A DNA stretch of 64,000 bases from Euzebya tangerina (GTDB lineage Bacteria; Actinomycetota; Nitriliruptoria; Euzebyales; Euzebyaceae). Location: positions 1 to 64,000 of the forward strand of contig NZ_PPDK01000005.1 in NCBI RefSeq assembly GCF_003074135.1, written 5' to 3'. The notes beneath the pieces were generated by a model that did no database searches, had not been told where the DNA came from, and saw only the letters and a program-made list of their open reading frames with translations. Positions 39,254 to 48,990 of this stretch are shown piece after piece (position 1 is the first letter of the stretch; every line of letters begins with the position of its first letter). The translations under genes and the position numbers were made by a program.

Positions 39254-39964
39254 CTAGTCGTCGTCCCCATCGTCATCGTCGTCATCCCCATCGTCGTCGT
39301 CCTCGTCGTCATCGTCATCGTCCTCGTCGTCATCGTCATCGTCGTCACGGTCGTCGTCATCGTGTGCCGCGGCGTCGGCGAGGACCTGGTCGCAGATGGC
39401 CCCTGGGCCTCCGAGCGCGACGACACGGTCCGGGTCGAGGCGATCGATCTCCTCGAGCACGACGCCCGGGATCTCGCCGCATGATGGCACCAGGAGGATC
39501 GGGCCGTCGGTCAGCACCCCGCCGGCGACGGCATCCGCGGAGTCATCGGCCCGCGCGAGGTAGGCGGTGTCGGCACCGTCGGAGAACTGGTCTGCGGAGA
39601 TGGCCACTGCCGTGTGGAAGCGGGTGTCGCCGAACAGGCGGGCGGTGACGCGCGAGTCGTCGTCCCCGTTGTCGTCATCGTCGTCGCCTGGACCGTCGTC
39701 ATCGCCCGGACCCTCATCATCGTCATCATCCCCCGGGCCGTCGTCGTCCCCGTTGTCGTCATCGTCGTCGCCAGGGCCGTCATCGTCGCCCGGGCCATCG
39801 TCCTCATCGTCGTCATCATCATCCCCCGGACCGTCGTCATCGTCGTCGCCCTCGCCATCGAAGGTGGGAAGTGCCGGCGCCTGGACGGTGGCCAGGGCTG
39901 CTGACGCGAGCCCCAGGCTCATCAGGACGGCCAAGACCATCGCCAGGTAGGTGTGTCTGCGCAC
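39254..39964 (-). CDS. secreted Asp-rich protein with one cell-wall-binding repeat
   Basis: 236 residues from a GTG with a strong GAGGAG site. A Sec signal peptide (TYLAMVLAVLMSLGLASAALA) is followed by an extremely acidic tract of Asp with Gly-Pro breaks (about residues 36-103), one wall-binding repeat 2 unit (RLFGDTRFHTAVAISADQF to AAAH) and a second Asp-rich tail of about 35 residues. The wall-binding unit should hold the protein on the envelope. The acidic arms could bind Ca2+ or other cations or mimic anionic matrix polymers. No enzymatic motif. It precedes the two giant proteins on the opposite strand. Confidence 0.85.
   Translation of the reverse strand: MRRHTYLAMVLAVLMSLGLASAALATVQAPALPTFDGEGDDDDDGPGDDDDDDEDDGPGDDDGPGDDDDDNGDDDGPGDDDDDEGPGDDDGPGDDDDDNGDDDSRVTARLFGDTRFHTAVAISADQFSDGADTAYLARADDSADAVAGGVLTDGPILLVPSCGEIPGVVLEEIDRLDPDRVVALGGPGAICDQVLADAAAHDDDDRDDDDDDDEDDDDDDEDDDDGDDDDDDGDDD
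39655..39862 (-). repeat. Asp-codon repeat tract (N-terminal acidic region)
   Basis: About 200 bp of GAC/GAT triplets interrupted by GGG/CCG/GGT codons encodes the DDDDDGPGDDDD-type region. A second, shorter tract lies at 39256-39363. Both are prone to slippage, so the length may vary among strains. Confidence 0.8.
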
Positions 39965-40193: not shown

Positions 40194-43100
40194 ATGCCGA
40201 ATCCGTCAGAACTGCCGCCGCCATCTTTCGCGTTCGGACGCAGACGACTGCTGCAAGGCGGTCTCGTCCTGTTCTCCGCGACCATGCTCGACGCCACGCT
40301 ACCGACCTCGGCATCGGGACAGGAGTTCGCTGGCTTCCAACTGCTGCGCCTGCGTCGGCGTGAGGACCAGCTCAACCTGAATCTGCAGCTCTTCGGTCTG
40401 AACTTCGACGGGCAGCAGCTGACGCGAGGCTCGGGCCGGGCATTCATCGTCGTGGAGTTCCCGCCGCAGCACGTGCTGGAGGAGGCGTTCCTCGAGAGCG
40501 ACCCCGCTCTGGAACCGATCACGCCTGAGACCCGCGGCGGTCAGCAGGTGGGGCTGGGCGTGCGAGCTCGCCTCTCCGGTACCAGCCGACTGGCCTTCCG
40601 GATCCCCGACGACATCGACGCAATACCGCTGACACCGGAGGGCCTGTTCAACTGGGCGGCGTGGACCGCCTCCCTCGTCGGCGCCGCACAGGCGCCGGGG
40701 GCGGCACCGAGCCAGCCCTCCGGCACGCAGACGGCGATCGAGCTGCCCTGGTGGCTGCTGCTCAGTCCGGATGACACCTCCGGTTGGGCGCACTCGGCGA
40801 CCCCGGTCGATCTGGGCGGACCGCGGACGGAGCTGTGGCACACCCGACTCGCGCGCCTGCAGGGCGGCGAGCTGAGCGAGGACTCCCCTCGCCCGGTCCG
40901 CGCGGTCTGGGCGCGTGATCAGGGGTTGGACGAGCACCTCCAGGGTGAGGAGCGGTTGACCGACAGCGGTGTCCCCTTCGCCGATGGTGGCCTGGTCCCC
41001 ATGTACCCGGTGGATCGCGGGGACATCGTGATGTCGACCGCGGGCTGGCCCGGGACGACGGCCTACCGGCTGGACCCCGAGCCGGTCGAGGCCCACCGGT
41101 TGGCGCTGTCGCCCTTCGGTGGGTGGCTCGACTCCACGGGGAACTGGGCGGAGGAGCCCGAGGGGCAGCCGGCATCGACCTCGCTCGAGTCGTGGCGCCA
41201 CATCGCCGCCGTGGGCCGCGACAACTACGTCCGTATCGTCCGTCGCGGGTTCCTGTTCCCCTTCGGTCACCGCGCCTCTCTGGTCCGAGTGACCGAGCGC
41301 CGCTTCACCCCCGTCCAGATCGACGGCCAGACGCGGCAGGTCGCCCTCCTGCGGCAGAAGTTCTTCATCATCGTCCGCGAGCCGGTGCAGACGTACGGCA
41401 CCGGAGTGCCCTTCGGCGGTGCCGCCACACCGTTCGATCGGATCGAGGTGCTCACCCTCACGACACCATCCCTCGACGCGCCCCCGAACGACGTGGCTCC
41501 GGATGTCGGTGTGATCGATCTCCAGGGCGAGGGTCCTGGGGCACCGCCGGAGAACGCATCGGAGGTCTTCGTCCCGGCCATTGATGGAGAACCGTTCCGG
41601 TTCGTCGTGGATGCCCGTGACTACGACGGGGTCCATCACACCTTCACCAGCGCCGTCGCGTTCGTCGAGCTGACCTCCGCGGAGAACGCGGCAGTGATCG
41701 ATCGGCTGATCGACCGGTGGGAGTCGCAGAACCCCGACGGACCACTGCGGCGCTCAGACCTGCAGGGACGCCGCGTCATGCTGAGCGAACCGTCGACCGA
41801 CAAGCCCGGCAACTCCGAGGCCATCACGAACTCGCTGTCGTGGAGCGGCGTTCCCTTCCCCGGACAGCGCCCTGCCTTCTCCCCCTTCCTCTCGTTTGCC
41901 CGCATCGTCCCGGAAGCGGCGGAGGCGATGCTCGGCGGCGCCGTCGGCAGCGACATCCCGATGAGCTACACCGCCGCCTACCTCGACGCCGGCGGTTTCC
42001 TGGGCGGGCCACTGGAGGACGCGGGGGCGTTCATGGCCTTCGCCGACGATCTCGTCGACGAGGTCGCACCCGGGTTGGACTTCGCGGGCAGCGGCAAGTC
42101 CGACCGGAGCGGTGGCTCGGTCAGCCCGGGTCTTGTCATCAGGTCGCTGTCCCGGGCGGTCGGCATCGCCGGCGACCCATCGACGTTGCTGCCCACGGGT
42201 GGCATCGACCTCGCCGCGCTCTTCTCCGACCTGGGCGGCTTCCTCGGCAACATCCTGCTGGAGAACGTGCTCCCGACGGATGTGTCCTTGGAGGAGGGGC
42301 CGTTCGCCCTCGAGAGCCGCCGCGAGGGCGACATCGTGACCAGTCGGATGACGGTGAACTCCGGCCTGGTCGATTGGCCCAGCGACGATCCGGTCTTCCT
42401 GGCATCGGAGGGCACACCCGCCAAGCTGCTGATCGAGGTCACCAACGTCGTCCCGCTGACCAACCCGCAGGCGGCCACCACCGACATCGTCGGCGAGGTC
42501 ACGAACTTCTCGATCATCCTCTTCGGCCCCGTCCCGTTCATCCAGGTCGACTTCTCCGCGCTGACCTTCGAGGCTCGGCCGGGCCAGAGCCCCACCGTCG
42601 ATCCGGGCATCATCGACGTCTTCCCGCCGGACAACAGTCCGCTCAACTTCATCGATCAGGTCCTCAGCCTGCTGCCCACCGACACCTTCGGGTTCGACGT
42701 CGACATCTCCGCGGCCGGCGTCACGGCAGGGCTCGACACCACCTTCCCGACCATCACCATCGGGGCCCTGCAGATCCACCAGCCCAATCTGGGCGTGGCG
42801 GTCACGATCCCGTTCAACGGCGACCCGTTCGCTCTGCGCTTCAACCTGGGCCGGCGGGACCTGCCCATCGCGGTGACCTACCTCGCCCTGGGCGGCGGGT
42901 TCTGGTTCGAGGTCGAGGTCACGGGCAGCACCGTCATCCTGCTCACCGTCGGCATCGAGGTCCGCGCGTCCGCCGAGGTCGGGGTCGGCCCGTTCAAGGC
43001 CAAGGGCAGCATCGCCGTCGGCATCTTCTTCTCGATCGAGAACAAGGACGGCCAGGAATCGGCCATCCTCGGCGGCTACATCCGCGCCGAGGTCGAGGTC

Positions 43101-43397
43101 AACGTCCTGATCCTCGGTGTCCACATCACCTTCGAGCTGGTGATGACCTACGACTTCAACAGCAACCAGGCCACCGGCCGCGCAACCGTGGAGATCGAAG
43201 TCGAGATCGCCTTCATCGGCTTCTCCTGGTCGATCGAGGTGGAACGCAAGATCGGCGGCGGTGGCGGCGGAGGCGGCGGCCTCCGCCAAGGCCAGGCCGC
43301 GGGCTTCCTGGGACCCACCGCAACACCCCGGTTCGGTGACACCCTTGCCGAGGGGGACTGGGCGGCGTACTGCGACGCCTTCGCACCAGTGGCGTAG
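40194..43397 (+). CDS. large Tat-signal protein of unknown function
   Basis: 1067 residues, start supported by GAGGGAG. The N-terminus FGRRRLLQGGLVLFSATMLDATLPTSASG is a Tat-type signal (twin Arg, hydrophobic stretch, AxG-like site). The middle (about 60-600) is beta-rich with no family I can name. The last 250 residues are a long run of alternating short amphipathic strands (FWFEVEVTGSTVILLTVGIEV, GVHITFELVMTYDFN, ATVEIEVEIAFIGFSWSIEVE), ending in a poly-Gly stretch, as in extended beta-sheet or lipid-groove folds. It is co-transcribed with the 1851-residue gene 37 nt downstream. It is probably exported folded and may bind or carry that partner; this is inference. Confidence 0.7.
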   Translation: MPNPSELPPPSFAFGRRRLLQGGLVLFSATMLDATLPTSASGQEFAGFQLLRLRRREDQLNLNLQLFGLNFDGQQLTRGSGRAFIVVEFPPQHVLEEAFLESDPALEPITPETRGGQQVGLGVRARLSGTSRLAFRIPDDIDAIPLTPEGLFNWAAWTASLVGAAQAPGAAPSQPSGTQTAIELPWWLLLSPDDTSGWAHSATPVDLGGPRTELWHTRLARLQGGELSEDSPRPVRAVWARDQGLDEHLQGEERLTDSGVPFADGGLVPMYPVDRGDIVMSTAGWPGTTAYRLDPEPVEAHRLALSPFGGWLDSTGNWAEEPEGQPASTSLESWRHIAAVGRDNYVRIVRRGFLFPFGHRASLVRVTERRFTPVQIDGQTRQVALLRQKFFIIVREPVQTYGTGVPFGGAATPFDRIEVLTLTTPSLDAPPNDVAPDVGVIDLQGEGPGAPPENASEVFVPAIDGEPFRFVVDARDYDGVHHTFTSAVAFVELTSAENAAVIDRLIDRWESQNPDGPLRRSDLQGRRVMLSEPSTDKPGNSEAITNSLSWSGVPFPGQRPAFSPFLSFARIVPEAAEAMLGGAVGSDIPMSYTAAYLDAGGFLGGPLEDAGAFMAFADDLVDEVAPGLDFAGSGKSDRSGGSVSPGLVIRSLSRAVGIAGDPSTLLPTGGIDLAALFSDLGGFLGNILLENVLPTDVSLEEGPFALESRREGDIVTSRMTVNSGLVDWPSDDPVFLASEGTPAKLLIEVTNVVPLTNPQAATTDIVGEVTNFSIILFGPVPFIQVDFSALTFEARPGQSPTVDPGIIDVFPPDNSPLNFIDQVLSLLPTDTFGFDVDISAAGVTAGLDTTFPTITIGALQIHQPNLGVAVTIPFNGDPFALRFNLGRRDLPIAVTYLALGGGFWFEVEVTGSTVILLTVGIEVRASAEVGVGPFKAKGSIAVGIFFSIENKDGQESAILGGYIRAEVEVNVLILGVHITFELVMTYDFNSNQATGRATVEIEVEIAFIGFSWSIEVERKIGGGGGGGGGLRQGQAAGFLGPTATPRFGDTLAEGDWAAYCDAFAPVA

Positions 43398-43434
43398 CAC
43401 GGACACACGCAAGCAAAGGACAGAGGGATCCACC

Positions 43435-46400
43435 ATGAGTCAACTGACCTGGACCGTCCTCCCGAACGGGATCACCGACGACGGCACCATCGCCCGGCTG
43501 AGCGTGCACCTCGACATCACCACCGTCGAGGGGAGCCTGGTCGACCACGAGGAGTTCCTGACGGGCGACTCCCCGTCCTGGCCCCCGGATGACATCACCT
43601 TCGATGTCGTGATCGGCCCACTCGGCGGTGCCGAGTCCGAGATCACGCGCCTGACGGCCACACCGGTGGAGCTGGCCGACTCCGCCACCTGGGGTGAGCT
43701 GTTCGAGCCGGACTCGCCGAGCAGTGACGAGCCGTTCGTGGACCGGACCGACGTCCCGATCCACACCTATCCCTCCGCCCAGTTGGCCGACTTCATCCGT
43801 GACGCCTACGTGGACGCGGCCGTGCGTGCGCCGGAGACCGGGCCCAAGCGCTGCGATCTGCTGGCGCGGGGATGGCGGAACCTGGCCTTCACCACGCCCG
43901 CCGGCAACCGGCTGGAACAGCCAGTCCGGGACGCGCTGGACACCATCCACGCCGGGGAGGCTGACGGCCCGCCGGTCGTCGACACCAGGTCCGGACAGAC
44001 GTTCTCGCAGATCGACGCGCTGGTGGCGGCACCCCTCGAGACGGTGGCGTTCGCCCAACTGCGGGACTACTACACGCCGCCAGACCTGAACGACGAGCTC
44101 GTGGCTGCGGCGTACGCCCAGCCACTGGCGCCTCTGGGGCTCAACCTGCGGCGAGCCATCTCGGCCATCAACGCCCAACCCTTCCTCCAACGGCTCTTCG
44201 GGCTCGTGTTCGATCTGGAGATTCCACTGCCGGCGCCGCGGGGCGACCAGCCGGTGTACGTCGTGCCGCGCTCCTCCCGCCTGGCGACCTCACGGAACCG
44301 CCTCCCCGCGACCATGACGGACACCACCACGTGGCTGGCCCGGCCACGAGCGGGCAGCGACTACGCCGACGGCTACTTGCGGCTCGAGGAGCCCGAGACC
44401 GGCAAGGTCATCGACTTCGACCTGGACGGCGGCGCCCTGGGTGCCACCATCTTCGCCGGGACGCTGCTGACCGTCGAGCAGAACCTGACCATCGACACGC
44501 CGGAGACCACGAACCTCCCCGCCCTCCGCAATCAGGGACTGATGGTCACCCGGCCCGGCAACGCCGCGACACTCCACGCCGTGCTCGTGGCCGGATTGGC
44601 GGCCCAGGAGCCGTTGAACAACGGCCAGCTGATCCTGTTCGCGGACGACCTCGTCCGGGGCTTGCGGTTCGACGTCCGCCGGGACGAGGGTTCCTGGCAG
44701 TCGCTGATGCGTCGCTCCTCGACGTACGTCTTCCCCGGGACGCTGGGCGAGGTGACCATCGACGACGAAGAGGGGTACATCCCCCGGACGCCGAGTGCCA
44801 GGCCCGGCAGCCCGGACTGGTATCTATCGGAGACGCTCCTGTGGTGGGATGGCTGGAGCCCCATCCTTCCCAGGCCGGGTCGTGTCCTGAACGCCGACCT
44901 CGAGGACGCCGACGTGGCGGTGGAGCCGCCGACCAATGACGAGCCCGATCCGGACTTCCCGGTCTTGACCAGCCACGGCCTCGTTCCTGGGTCTCAGACG
45001 GCGCTGCGGGCCGGGAGTCAGTACACCTTCCGTGCCCGGATCGTCGACCTGGCCGGCAACTCCGTCCCGGTCGACGACAACGCAAGCCACGCCACCGAGC
45101 CGGTCATCTACCGCCGCTTCCAGCCTCTCAACCCGCCCGACCTTGCGCTGCGGACCTCTCCAGGTGCAGGCGAGGACGTCACCACGGTCGTCCTGCGAAG
45201 CGACGTGGACACCGACCCGAGCCCGGCGACGTCACAGCGGCACCTCGTTCCGCCGCGGTCGGAGTACACCCAAGCTGAGATCCTGGGTCTGCTGGATCGG
45301 CCGGACGGCACACCTGACCCGGCGCGGTACGCCGAGCTGGCCCAGCGGGATGCGGCAGACCTGTCAACCGTGCCCGGCGCCACCCCAGACCCTGACCGCC
45401 CCGGCGTCCTGCTGTACGGCCAGGAGACCATCACCATCGACTGGTTGGCCGACCCCTGGATCGGTGACATGAACCTGCGGGTGCTCGACGGCCCCTACGC
45501 CGACGCCATCGCCCAACTGCCCATCACGGGGATCAGCCGGCGCCTGATCGTCAACCAGGGGGATGCTGAGCCGACCGCCGGGGCCGCCGGCTTCACCGTG
45601 CCGCTCCGGAAGGCCGACATCGTTCACGTCAGGCTGACCTCGGTGCCGGTGGATGAGACCGTCGACCTCCTCGGCATCCAGGGGTGGATGCGGGACGACC
45701 TCGACCCCGCGCAGATCCAGGACACGCTGGCACTGATCGCAACCGGTCGACACGTGATGGTGTCCCCGCCCCGTGACCTGACGTTGGTGCACGCCGTCAG
45801 GCGTCCGCTGCTCGTGCCCGGCTTCGCCGACGGCTCGCCGACGATCTTTCGTCGTCCAGACGCCACCTGGGCGGGGCTGGGCGGCACCATCGAGTTCCAC
45901 CGTCGCTCCACGGTGCAGTTGGAGATCGGGGCCTCATGGGAGGAGTACACCGACGCAGGGCCCGGGGGACCGCCACCCACGGACCCCGACGGCCCGGACG
46001 GCGTGGCGCCGATCGCCACGCGCGATGGGTCGGCGGTGGTGCTGGGCCAACTCGACTACGACGGGACCGACGAGATCGATCTGGCCTTCGACACCCGCCA
46101 GGAGTTCGGCGACACCCGTCATCGACAGGTCGCCTACGACATCACCGCCACCAGCCGATTCGTGGAGTACTTCGCCGAGCGCGTCAGCCCAGATCCCACC
46201 TGGCAGCCGGGAACGGAGATCGCCGATCTCGGTCCGCAACTCCAGGCGGATGAGGAAGTCGTGCCCGGGTCGATCACGGTCATCGCGCAGTTGCCCGGCG
46301 GGGCACCTGACCAGCCGCTTCGCGAGGTGAAGCTGGTCGAGCGCCGCGAACGCAGCGACGGCAGCGGCCCCACGCCAGGACACTATGTGGTCGATCGGGA

Positions 46401-48990
46401 GGACTGGATCGTGTCAGCGGTCAGCGCCGGGGAGGCAGCCGCACCGACCCTGGCAGCAATCCCCGACGGCACCCCGCTGAAGGTCCTCTACACCCTCCCT
46501 CCCGTGGTGCAGGAGTCGGGCCAGACGGAGCTCATCTCGGTGCCCGCCTCGGCCCGGCCACAGAGTCCGGTGGTCAAGTGGGTCGTCCCGGCCTTCGATC
46601 TGACTCACCAGCAGTCGGACAGCACGGTGGCCTCCGTCCGTGAGGGCGGCTGGCTTCGGGTCTATCTCGACCGACCGTGGTGGACCTCTGGCGAAAGCGA
46701 GATGCTCGGCGTGCTGACCTACCCCGCCGCCGAGCTGCAGGGCACGGCAGCAGTCGACCTCCCTGCTGACGACCCCCTACGGCCCTACGTGACCCAGTGG
46801 GGCGAGGACCCGGTCCTGTCCGGCGAGCCACTCCCACTGCGGTATCCGCCCATGGGTGCCTTTCCCGAGGCCCAGGTGACCGAGTACGGGGTGCGACTCG
46901 CCGAGGACCCCGGAGCCGCACCCCGGCCGCGTGGCCCGATTGCCTCCCTCGCGGCCCAGAGCCCCCCGCCACTGGCCGTGAACGTCGCCGGCCACGCTCC
47001 TGTCTATGACGCAGACCGAGATCTGTGGGCGGTCGACGTCAAGGTCCTCGGGGGACGGGCGTACCGGCCGTTCACCCGACTGGCGTTGGCCCGGTACCAG
47101 CCGGAGTCCCTCACGGGTCTGGAGCTCTCCGAGGTGGTCCTCGCCGACCTCATCCAGCTGGACCCCGACCGGTTCGTCAGCGTGACCCTACTCGAGGACT
47201 TCCGGTTGGCGGTTGCCCTCAGCGGCATCACCTACACCGAGGCCGCGCCGGGCACGCCGCTGATCGGGCGTGCCTACGCAACCGTCGAGGTCCTTCGGGA
47301 CGGCTTCACGACCGAGGACCCCCAAGAGGTGGCGTACGACTCGCTGGCCGGATCCGGCCGTCAACTGCTGGAGAGCGGCCCAGCCGTAGATGGGGTTGCG
47401 GCGTGGACGGGGCAGCTCGGTGTTGCTGCCGGACAAGACATCCGGGTTGTCTTCGAGCAGTACGAGCTCATCCCGGTCCAAACATCGGCGGGCGGAATCG
47501 CCGAATTTCCTGGCGAACGGCTGGTGCACACCGACACCATCCGGCTGCGCATACCTGACGACGCCAGCGACCTGGTGATCGTCACACCGGACACACTGGA
47601 GGGACCCATCACTGGGCTGCCGGAGATCGTGGACCCCGTTCCGGCCCCGCCGCCCGCGACGGTTGTCCTGGTCGCGTTGGACTTCGGCCCCGATCCGTCG
47701 CAGCAACTCGTCGTGCCGCGCCAGGGATCGACATCGGGTGAGGGCGCCGGAAGCACCGGGCAGTTCGCGGGGCCCGCCGACGGCGCGGTGGCTGCGGTGC
47801 GGTTCAGCGACGCCTCTGGAGCCGGGAGCCTGACCGTCCGAACCATCGAGGAACGCCCCGGCGGCCTGGGCCTCGGGATCACACCCATCGGCCCGGCCGT
47901 GACCGTGATCGCCTCCGGGGTCACGCACGGCACCGTGGAGGTCGACCTGCCCGCGCCGGGCAACGGTCCCGAACGGGTCTACCAACAAGTCGGCCGCACC
48001 TGGGTTGACGTCACCCTCGCTCGTTCGGACGGCGTCGTCACGGCCTCGAGCAACTCCCTGTCGACCTTCGTGGTGGGCCTCCCCACCGGGTATCGCCGCT
48101 TCGCCGGGCCCGACCGGATCGCCACGGCCATCGCCATCTCCGAGGCGACGTTCGCACCGGGTGTGCGGCGCGCATATCTGGCGACGGCCGGCAACTTCCC
48201 GGATGCCCTGGCTGCCGGTCCTCCCGCGTCCATGGCCAACTCGCCGGTGCTGCTGGTCGGCGACTCGCTCTCGCCGCTCACGGGGGAGGAGCTGGTGCGC
48301 CTGGACCCCTGCGAGGTCGTGATCCTGGGCAGCACGGCGGCTGTCTCCGAGACGGTGGCCGAGCAGGTCCGCGCACTCGGCTTCGGCGTCCGGCGGGTCG
48401 CCGGCCCCGAGCGCTTCTCCACCGCGGCGGCCATCTCAGAGGACGCCTTCCCGAACGGGGCCAGCATCGCCTACATCGCCACGGGCGAGGCGTTCCCGGA
48501 TGCGCTGGCCGGTGGCACAGCCGCAGCTCGCGATCGTGCCCCGATGCTGCTGGTCCAGCGCGATGGCCTCCCGGCCCCGACTGAGGCCGAGCTGAGGCGA
48601 CTGTCTCCCTCCCGGATCGTGATCCTGGGCGGGGAGGCAGCCGTCTCGGCTGCCGTGGCCGACCAACTCGGGGCGCTGGGTGGGGCTCGGGTCGAGCGCT
48701 ACGCCGGGCCTGACCGCTTCTCGACAGCCGCCGCGGTGGCGGCGTCGTTCGGGACCGCGAAGACCGTCTTCGTGGCGACTGGCAACGAGTTCCCCGATGC
48801 GCTGGCCGGTGTGCCGGCCGCTGGGATCGAGCGGGCCGCGCTGGTGCTGGTCCAGCCAGACGCCGTGCCCGATGTGGCCGCCACCCAGCTGTCGCGGCTG
48901 CGCCCGGACCAGATCGTGGTGTTGGGCGGGACCGCCGCCGTCGGTGCGGAGCTCGACGGCATCCTGCAGCAGTACTTGGCCACGGCCTAG
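43435..48990 (+). CDS. giant protein with three C-terminal cell-wall-binding repeats, no visible signal peptide
   Basis: 1851 residues; the ATG at 43435 has GAGGGA 10 nt upstream. Residues about 1-1540 are unlike any family I know, with a conserved-looking aromatic block SETLLWWDGWSPILPRPGR and QYTFRARIVDLAGNSV, an Ig-like signature. The last 300 residues are three wall-binding repeat 2 units (RFAGPDRIATAIAISEATF; VAGPERFSTAAAISEDAF; YAGPDRFSTAAAVAASF), each of about 98 residues. It therefore should sit on the cell wall. The N-terminus (MSQLTWTVLPNGITDDG) has no Sec or Tat signal, even in the upstream in-frame extension, so export may depend on its Tat-signal neighbour or another route. Confidence 0.75.
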   Translation: MSQLTWTVLPNGITDDGTIARLSVHLDITTVEGSLVDHEEFLTGDSPSWPPDDITFDVVIGPLGGAESEITRLTATPVELADSATWGELFEPDSPSSDEPFVDRTDVPIHTYPSAQLADFIRDAYVDAAVRAPETGPKRCDLLARGWRNLAFTTPAGNRLEQPVRDALDTIHAGEADGPPVVDTRSGQTFSQIDALVAAPLETVAFAQLRDYYTPPDLNDELVAAAYAQPLAPLGLNLRRAISAINAQPFLQRLFGLVFDLEIPLPAPRGDQPVYVVPRSSRLATSRNRLPATMTDTTTWLARPRAGSDYADGYLRLEEPETGKVIDFDLDGGALGATIFAGTLLTVEQNLTIDTPETTNLPALRNQGLMVTRPGNAATLHAVLVAGLAAQEPLNNGQLILFADDLVRGLRFDVRRDEGSWQSLMRRSSTYVFPGTLGEVTIDDEEGYIPRTPSARPGSPDWYLSETLLWWDGWSPILPRPGRVLNADLEDADVAVEPPTNDEPDPDFPVLTSHGLVPGSQTALRAGSQYTFRARIVDLAGNSVPVDDNASHATEPVIYRRFQPLNPPDLALRTSPGAGEDVTTVVLRSDVDTDPSPATSQRHLVPPRSEYTQAEILGLLDRPDGTPDPARYAELAQRDAADLSTVPGATPDPDRPGVLLYGQETITIDWLADPWIGDMNLRVLDGPYADAIAQLPITGISRRLIVNQGDAEPTAGAAGFTVPLRKADIVHVRLTSVPVDETVDLLGIQGWMRDDLDPAQIQDTLALIATGRHVMVSPPRDLTLVHAVRRPLLVPGFADGSPTIFRRPDATWAGLGGTIEFHRRSTVQLEIGASWEEYTDAGPGGPPPTDPDGPDGVAPIATRDGSAVVLGQLDYDGTDEIDLAFDTRQEFGDTRHRQVAYDITATSRFVEYFAERVSPDPTWQPGTEIADLGPQLQADEEVVPGSITVIAQLPGGAPDQPLREVKLVERRERSDGSGPTPGHYVVDREDWIVSAVSAGEAAAPTLAAIPDGTPLKVLYTLPPVVQESGQTELISVPASARPQSPVVKWVVPAFDLTHQQSDSTVASVREGGWLRVYLDRPWWTSGESEMLGVLTYPAAELQGTAAVDLPADDPLRPYVTQWGEDPVLSGEPLPLRYPPMGAFPEAQVTEYGVRLAEDPGAAPRPRGPIASLAAQSPPPLAVNVAGHAPVYDADRDLWAVDVKVLGGRAYRPFTRLALARYQPESLTGLELSEVVLADLIQLDPDRFVSVTLLEDFRLAVALSGITYTEAAPGTPLIGRAYATVEVLRDGFTTEDPQEVAYDSLAGSGRQLLESGPAVDGVAAWTGQLGVAAGQDIRVVFEQYELIPVQTSAGGIAEFPGERLVHTDTIRLRIPDDASDLVIVTPDTLEGPITGLPEIVDPVPAPPPATVVLVALDFGPDPSQQLVVPRQGSTSGEGAGSTGQFAGPADGAVAAVRFSDASGAGSLTVRTIEERPGGLGLGITPIGPAVTVIASGVTHGTVEVDLPAPGNGPERVYQQVGRTWVDVTLARSDGVVTASSNSLSTFVVGLPTGYRRFAGPDRIATAIAISEATFAPGVRRAYLATAGNFPDALAAGPPASMANSPVLLVGDSLSPLTGEELVRLDPCEVVILGSTAAVSETVAEQVRALGFGVRRVAGPERFSTAAAISEDAFPNGASIAYIATGEAFPDALAGGTAAARDRAPMLLVQRDGLPAPTEAELRRLSPSRIVILGGEAAVSAAVADQLGALGGARVERYAGPDRFSTAAAVAASFGTAKTVFVATGNEFPDALAGVPAAGIERAALVLVQPDAVPDVAATQLSRLRPDQIVVLGGTAAVGAELDGILQQYLATA

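Follow-up and report, generated by a model that had tools for sequence, protein, structure and literature searches.

How could a protein that carries wall-binding repeats come to the wall when it shows no export signal of its own? The question is raised by a pair of genes in a 64,000-nucleotide stretch of the Euzebya tangerina genome (contig NZ_PPDK01000005.1, positions 1 to 64,000; the whole of this stretch is called the window). Positions refer to the window, and features lie on its forward (+) strand unless stated otherwise. The second gene of the pair (43435..48990) encodes a protein of 1851 aa and 195.9 kDa without a signal peptide, called the giant below. The gene directly upstream (40194..43397) encodes its partner, a protein of 1067 aa and 113.5 kDa from an uncharacterised family. 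The initial annotation had proposed that the two proteins may be exported together by the twin-arginine translocation (Tat) system, with the giant as a hitchhiker on the signal of the partner.

Reading frame and start of the giant

In the ORF reading of the window, the giant frame has zero internal stops over 1851 codons, and third-position GC is even along the frame (0.80-0.94). A ribosome-binding site, AGAGGGA (43422..43428), is found six bases 5' of ATG 43435. Relatives of the giant start at the same point, and most of them have a W-T-x-L-P-x-G motif in the first 15 residues (WTVLPNG in the window protein). Since most relatives have this motif only a few residues behind their start codon, there is no space for a signal. 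Judged by the ribosome-binding site and the conserved opening, ATG 43435 is the start of the giant.

The frame is open back to 43147, within the partner gene, and the first start codon in this extension is GTG 43261. It would add 58 residues, which are hydrophilic and overlap the 3' end of the partner. No signal-like hydrophobic stretch of the Sec or Tat type was found at the giant start or in the upstream extension, and both were negative in our signal scan, which is an own heuristic and not SignalP, so that single calls may err. The earlier statement that the giant lacks a signal at its N-terminus and in the extension to 43261 was thus borne out, and a search for a cryptic signal or an upstream start that could overturn it found none, the start being fixed by the two features above. 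Internal starts were checked as well, and none yields a credible signal. The only candidate with a ribosome-site-like sequence, an ATG at residue 370, was rejected because it lies inside a conserved core motif. Among 33 giants, window included, none was positive in either the Tat or the Sec scan.

The conserved core of the giant family comprises residues 1-1371 (43435..47547), and other complete giants terminate where this core terminates. In the window giant it is followed by a linker region unique to this protein (residues 1372-1545; 47548..48069), for which nothing convincing as a source was found among the fetched CWB2 stretches of the same genome (best E 0.001), and then by the wall-binding repeats.

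CWB2 repeats in the giant and in the genome

The three wall-binding repeats reported earlier were recovered as three matches to CWB2 (Pfam PF04122, E 1.8e-46) at the C-terminus of the giant (48097..48357, 48394..48657 and 48697..48951). CWB2 repeats occur in wall-anchored proteins such as SlpA and the Cwp proteins of Clostridioides difficile. Like such proteins, and like many CWB2 proteins of the same genome, the giant has three of them at its C-terminus. It differs in having no signal peptide of its own, and also because its remainder comes from a family without CWB2 in any other member scanned (none of the 16 other members of set A1, and none of 6 further giants or pieces).

In order to compare the giant with the other CWB2 proteins of the genome, which contains at least 163 CWB2 matches, we collected 83 CWB2 ORFs from 60 fetched stretches and the window (about 100 frames are listed genome-wide). 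Two of these were pieces of other genes and were removed (the 3' part of L104_-_7415 is listed separately as L106_-_1, and L110_+_11372 runs on in another frame as L110_+_13600), so that 81 genes were left. A signal-like N-terminus was seen in 80 of the 81 genes examined (78 by scan, and the Sec-like L058 and Tat-like L111 by eye), with the giant as the sole exception. Two CWB2 genes, L092_+_761 (NRRTLLG) and L111_+_1254 (SRRSFVQ), have Tat-like signals of their own, so that Tat appears to handle CWB2 proteins in this genome. CWB2 is described as a non-covalent surface-binding motif in the cited passage of PMC12445088. The repeat region of the giant is up to 50% identical to that of a signal-bearing CWB2 protein of the same genome (L062), and such a module on the giant makes sense mainly outside the cell.

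The expansion of the CWB2 module in this genome is extreme, as the 60 fetched stretches plus the window already contain 81 distinct genes. A small CWB2 protein encoded next to the pair and divergent from it (39254-39964, minus strand) has a Sec-like signal and a single CWB2 repeat between long Asp/Gly-rich repeats. The two L110 frames (11372 and 13600) represent a CWB2 gene broken by a frame change inside the second repeat; it sits in a tandem cluster (C3:281795-292406).

A two-gene family with a variable signal on the partner

Relatives of both proteins were found across Actinomycetota and Pseudomonadota, at 20-33% identity to the window proteins, including a distant pair in Piscinibacter caeni. 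In the window, partner and giant genes are on the same strand with 37 bases between them. In 33 of 33 readable junctions, the partner gene was directly upstream of the giant gene on the same strand, at a distance of -4 to 67 bases. These 33 junction loci include G595 and leave out the window; the 33 pairs used for the signal scans include the window and leave out G595. Apart from generic transporter-like ORFs, the loci share no further conserved gene next to the pair.

In a phylum sample of 396 genomes, including the window's own, the giant was present in 11 and the partner in 10, all 10 being common to both; the eleventh giant genome (G162) also has a partner, by locus reading or profile. The partner was detected in 6 of 66 genomes of the class, and in 4/129, 9/200 and 6/118 genomes of the orders of G208, G325 and G230, respectively, in sets that overlap the 396-genome sample in part. 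Plasmid records contained 11 giants and 15 partners (Streptomyces, Cupriavidus, Rhizobium, Diaphorobacter and others); seven of these records were read, and 4 of the 11 giant and 8 of the 15 partner matches were left out. Three loci were excluded from the giant and partner counts (G595, partner start missing; G641, weak partial match; G592, partner fused to another stretch and giant start not found), and L037 and L043 were used solely as C-terminal pieces. Partner starts are unsure for G756 and G492, as is the exact start of the G230 partner. No relative of the pair was found in phages.

Searches for function returned little. Pfam and PADLOC gave no match in either protein beyond CWB2, and the partner was also without PHROGs or NCBIfam match. 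For the giant, the sole NCBIfam match, to an S-layer family, was below threshold and covered the CWB2 region, and PHROGs gave families of the CWB2 region and a weak central-tail-fibre match (residues 521-552, E 0.039), with no other match. A profile search against PDB found no match for the partner; for the giant, it returned no more than a weak FN3-like one (FN3con, E 0.15). Some relatives of the pair have weak or low-complexity family matches. In the giant of Streptomyces nigrescens (L034), residues 655-698 match PG_binding_1 below threshold (E 1.7e-4, 22.1 bits versus a cut-off of 23); no signal was detected in the partner of this giant. In the literature searched, mostly its open part, we found no paper naming the giant or partner family, and none joining Tat hitchhiking with wall-binding proteins. 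On sequence grounds, the pair is an uncharacterised, widespread two-gene cassette.

The partner of the window begins with a Tat-like signal (40194..40325, MPNPSELPPPSFAFGRRRLLQGGLVLFSATMLDATLPTSASGQ; scan result, with a predicted cleavage site), in which GRRRLLQ precedes a hydrophobic stretch. The twin-arginine signal ascribed to it in the initial annotation therefore held up in the Tat scan. At the other end, the partner has a conserved tail of the W-x-x-Y-C-x-A-F-A type (43359..43385), and 25 of 27 complete partners share the pattern W..[YRH]...F; it is possible that this is a docking tail. Before the tail, a low-confidence model has long beta-strands (AlphaFold2, single-sequence: pLDDT 40 for the C-terminal third of the partner, and 37 for the linker and CWB2 region of the giant).

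Tat signals were not restricted to the window. Nine of 33 partners passed the scan (the window and 8 of 32 relatives), against 1.1% of shuffled partner N-termini (145 of 13200). The Tat-positive partners are those of the window, G162, G406, G208, G457, G230, G819, Streptomyces NBC_01334 and Piscinibacter, the last with a lipobox-like cysteine besides the Tat signal. In the remaining 24 of 33, neither a Tat nor a Sec signal was detectable. The gene unit is intact in all nine Tat-type loci, the G230 partner being broken into two frames. On a tree of the giants, built without the signal region (which sits on the partner), the Tat label takes 4 changes, of which strong branches require at least 3. 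Six of the Tat-type loci, the window among them, group together (support 97). Because the branches of Piscinibacter, G162 and G230 are long, the number of changes is approximate. The Tat signal thus appears to have been gained or lost about four times, on the partner alone, and never to have been gained by the giant. As 24 of the 33 pairs are signal-less on both proteins, the pair seems to be kept without need of export.

Frame breaks in the partner occur twice, in L039 (G230) and in L031 (Rhizobium TP23). In G230, the break parts the Tat-signal portion from the remainder of the partner, and the giant frame is open.

Low cysteine content of the giant was considered as a sign of export and dropped. 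Tat-type giants had fewer cysteines than the others (p 0.009, Pseudomonadota left out, uncorrected for kinship), whereas partner cysteines did not differ between the two groups (p 0.53). The difference in giants is not evidence because of kinship (only three independent pairs), the equal partners, the Piscinibacter exception (a giant with 22 cysteines) and the yardstick of exported CWB2 proteins of the same genome, which, at a median of 6.3 per 1000, are not poor in cysteine.

Proposed joint export through Tat and competing explanations

We give a somewhat better than even chance to the reading that partner and giant form one complex, which in this organism would be exported through Tat by way of the partner signal and held at the wall by CWB2. 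The complex would form in the cytoplasm, the twin-arginine signal of the partner would escort the signal-less giant through Tat in a joint translocation, and the C-terminal repeats of the giant would then anchor the complex at the wall. That the two proteins form one complex is suggested by the strict gene unit, and with a Tat signal on the partner such a complex would be taken out as a whole, so that the giant would need no signal. Export of the partner alone would split the unit at each gain of a signal, yet the unit is kept. The genome has the Tat genes for this route (TatC, a neighbouring TatA, and a second TatA/B). The relatives suggest a mostly signal-less pair, with about four lineages gaining (or losing) the Tat signal of the partner, and in the lineage of the window the giant additionally bears the wall-binding module.

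A helper and passenger of this kind are known from actinomycetes. In the secretion of Streptomyces tyrosinase (MelC1-MelC2), a helper with a signal secretes its signal-less partner, as would be the case here; the MelC helper is a small copper chaperone, whereas the present partner has 1067 aa. Hitchhiking on Tat is established for HybOC and PaoABC (PMC4273604, cited passage), and a 2026 structural study states in its cited passage that hetero-oligomeric Tat substrates are transported after assembly (PMC13323110). HybOC and PaoABC share with the present pair the layout of one subunit with a Tat signal and another without, and the export of a preformed complex is the route proposed here too. In contrast to these cofactor enzymes (PaoABC has 135 kDa according to the cited passage), the present pair consists of two large members of an uncharacterised family, has wall-binding repeats on the passenger, and has mostly relatives without any signal.

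The main objection to hitchhiking is size. The combined mass of the pair is about 305 kDa (195.9 kDa plus about 109 kDa), compared to 135-150 kDa in the cited passages. Tat is stated there to handle cargo 'up to 150 kDa' (PMC6708511), and PaoABC is called 'one of the largest' Tat-exported structures (PMC4273604). The same passages describe the upper size limit of Tat as not determined (PMC6708511, PMC4273604), and the cited part of PMC9251779 gives no size for Tat cargo.

The hitchhiking proposal of the initial annotation thus came through in part. It gained from the strictness of the two-gene unit in two phyla, from a Tat signal that comes and goes on the partner while the giant is always signal-less, and from the association of wall-binding repeats with a signal in all other CWB2 genes examined. 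It was weakened by a mass twice that of the largest cited Tat cargo and by the pairs that are signal-less on both proteins. As the comparative evidence favours hitchhiking, the pair is filed as a candidate hitchhiker pair of an uncharacterised family.

The two weakening points also speak for a giant that acts inside the cell or reaches the outside only through lysis, as does the presence of CWB2 on the window giant only. The repeats would then be a recent fusion, either without a role inside the cell or binding the wall polymer of lysed neighbours, and the partner may exit alone. We consider this unlikely, though worth keeping in mind, since it leaves unexplained the recurrent Tat signal on the partner alone with the unit intact, and since CWB2 goes with a signal in the 80 other genes examined. 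A giant that exits by its own signal-less route, shared by the whole family, with the Tat signal of the partner as a separate matter, would account for wall-binding repeats on a protein whose family has no signal in any member. In Streptomyces nigrescens, where the partner is signal-less, the PG_binding_1 match of the giant, although below threshold, hints at wall contact there too and fits such a route. It is improbable nevertheless, as no such route was identified, no third conserved gene accompanies the pair, and an ESX/type VII route finds 0 WXG100 matches in the genome.

Least credible, and in our view very improbable, is an artefact. A signal could have been lost or misread through a frameshift or a misplaced start, or an assembly error could have joined a cytoplasmic protein to a CWB2 protein. 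The linker and CWB2 region is indeed missing from every other giant scanned, and frame breaks are known in this genome (L110) and in the partners of relatives (G230, Rhizobium TP23). Yet the 1851 codons are open with steady third-position GC, and the start has its ribosome-binding site and an opening conserved in most relatives.

A broader form of the hitchhiking reading is held more tentatively, and is in our judgement somewhat doubtful. The family could be a two-protein machine whose place, inside or outside the cell, changes in evolution as just one of its two subunits gains or loses a Tat signal. In the lineage of the window, Tat would then carry a folded complex of about 305 kDa, twice the mass of the largest cargo in the cited passages, with CWB2 holding the giant at the surface.

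Together, these observations define a widespread, uncharacterised two-gene family, and a missing signal alone does not exclude a surface location. As the natural pair would lie far beyond the size range known for Tat, and as its natural relatives differ in whether the partner has a signal, the question of how large a Tat cargo can be would become directly testable.
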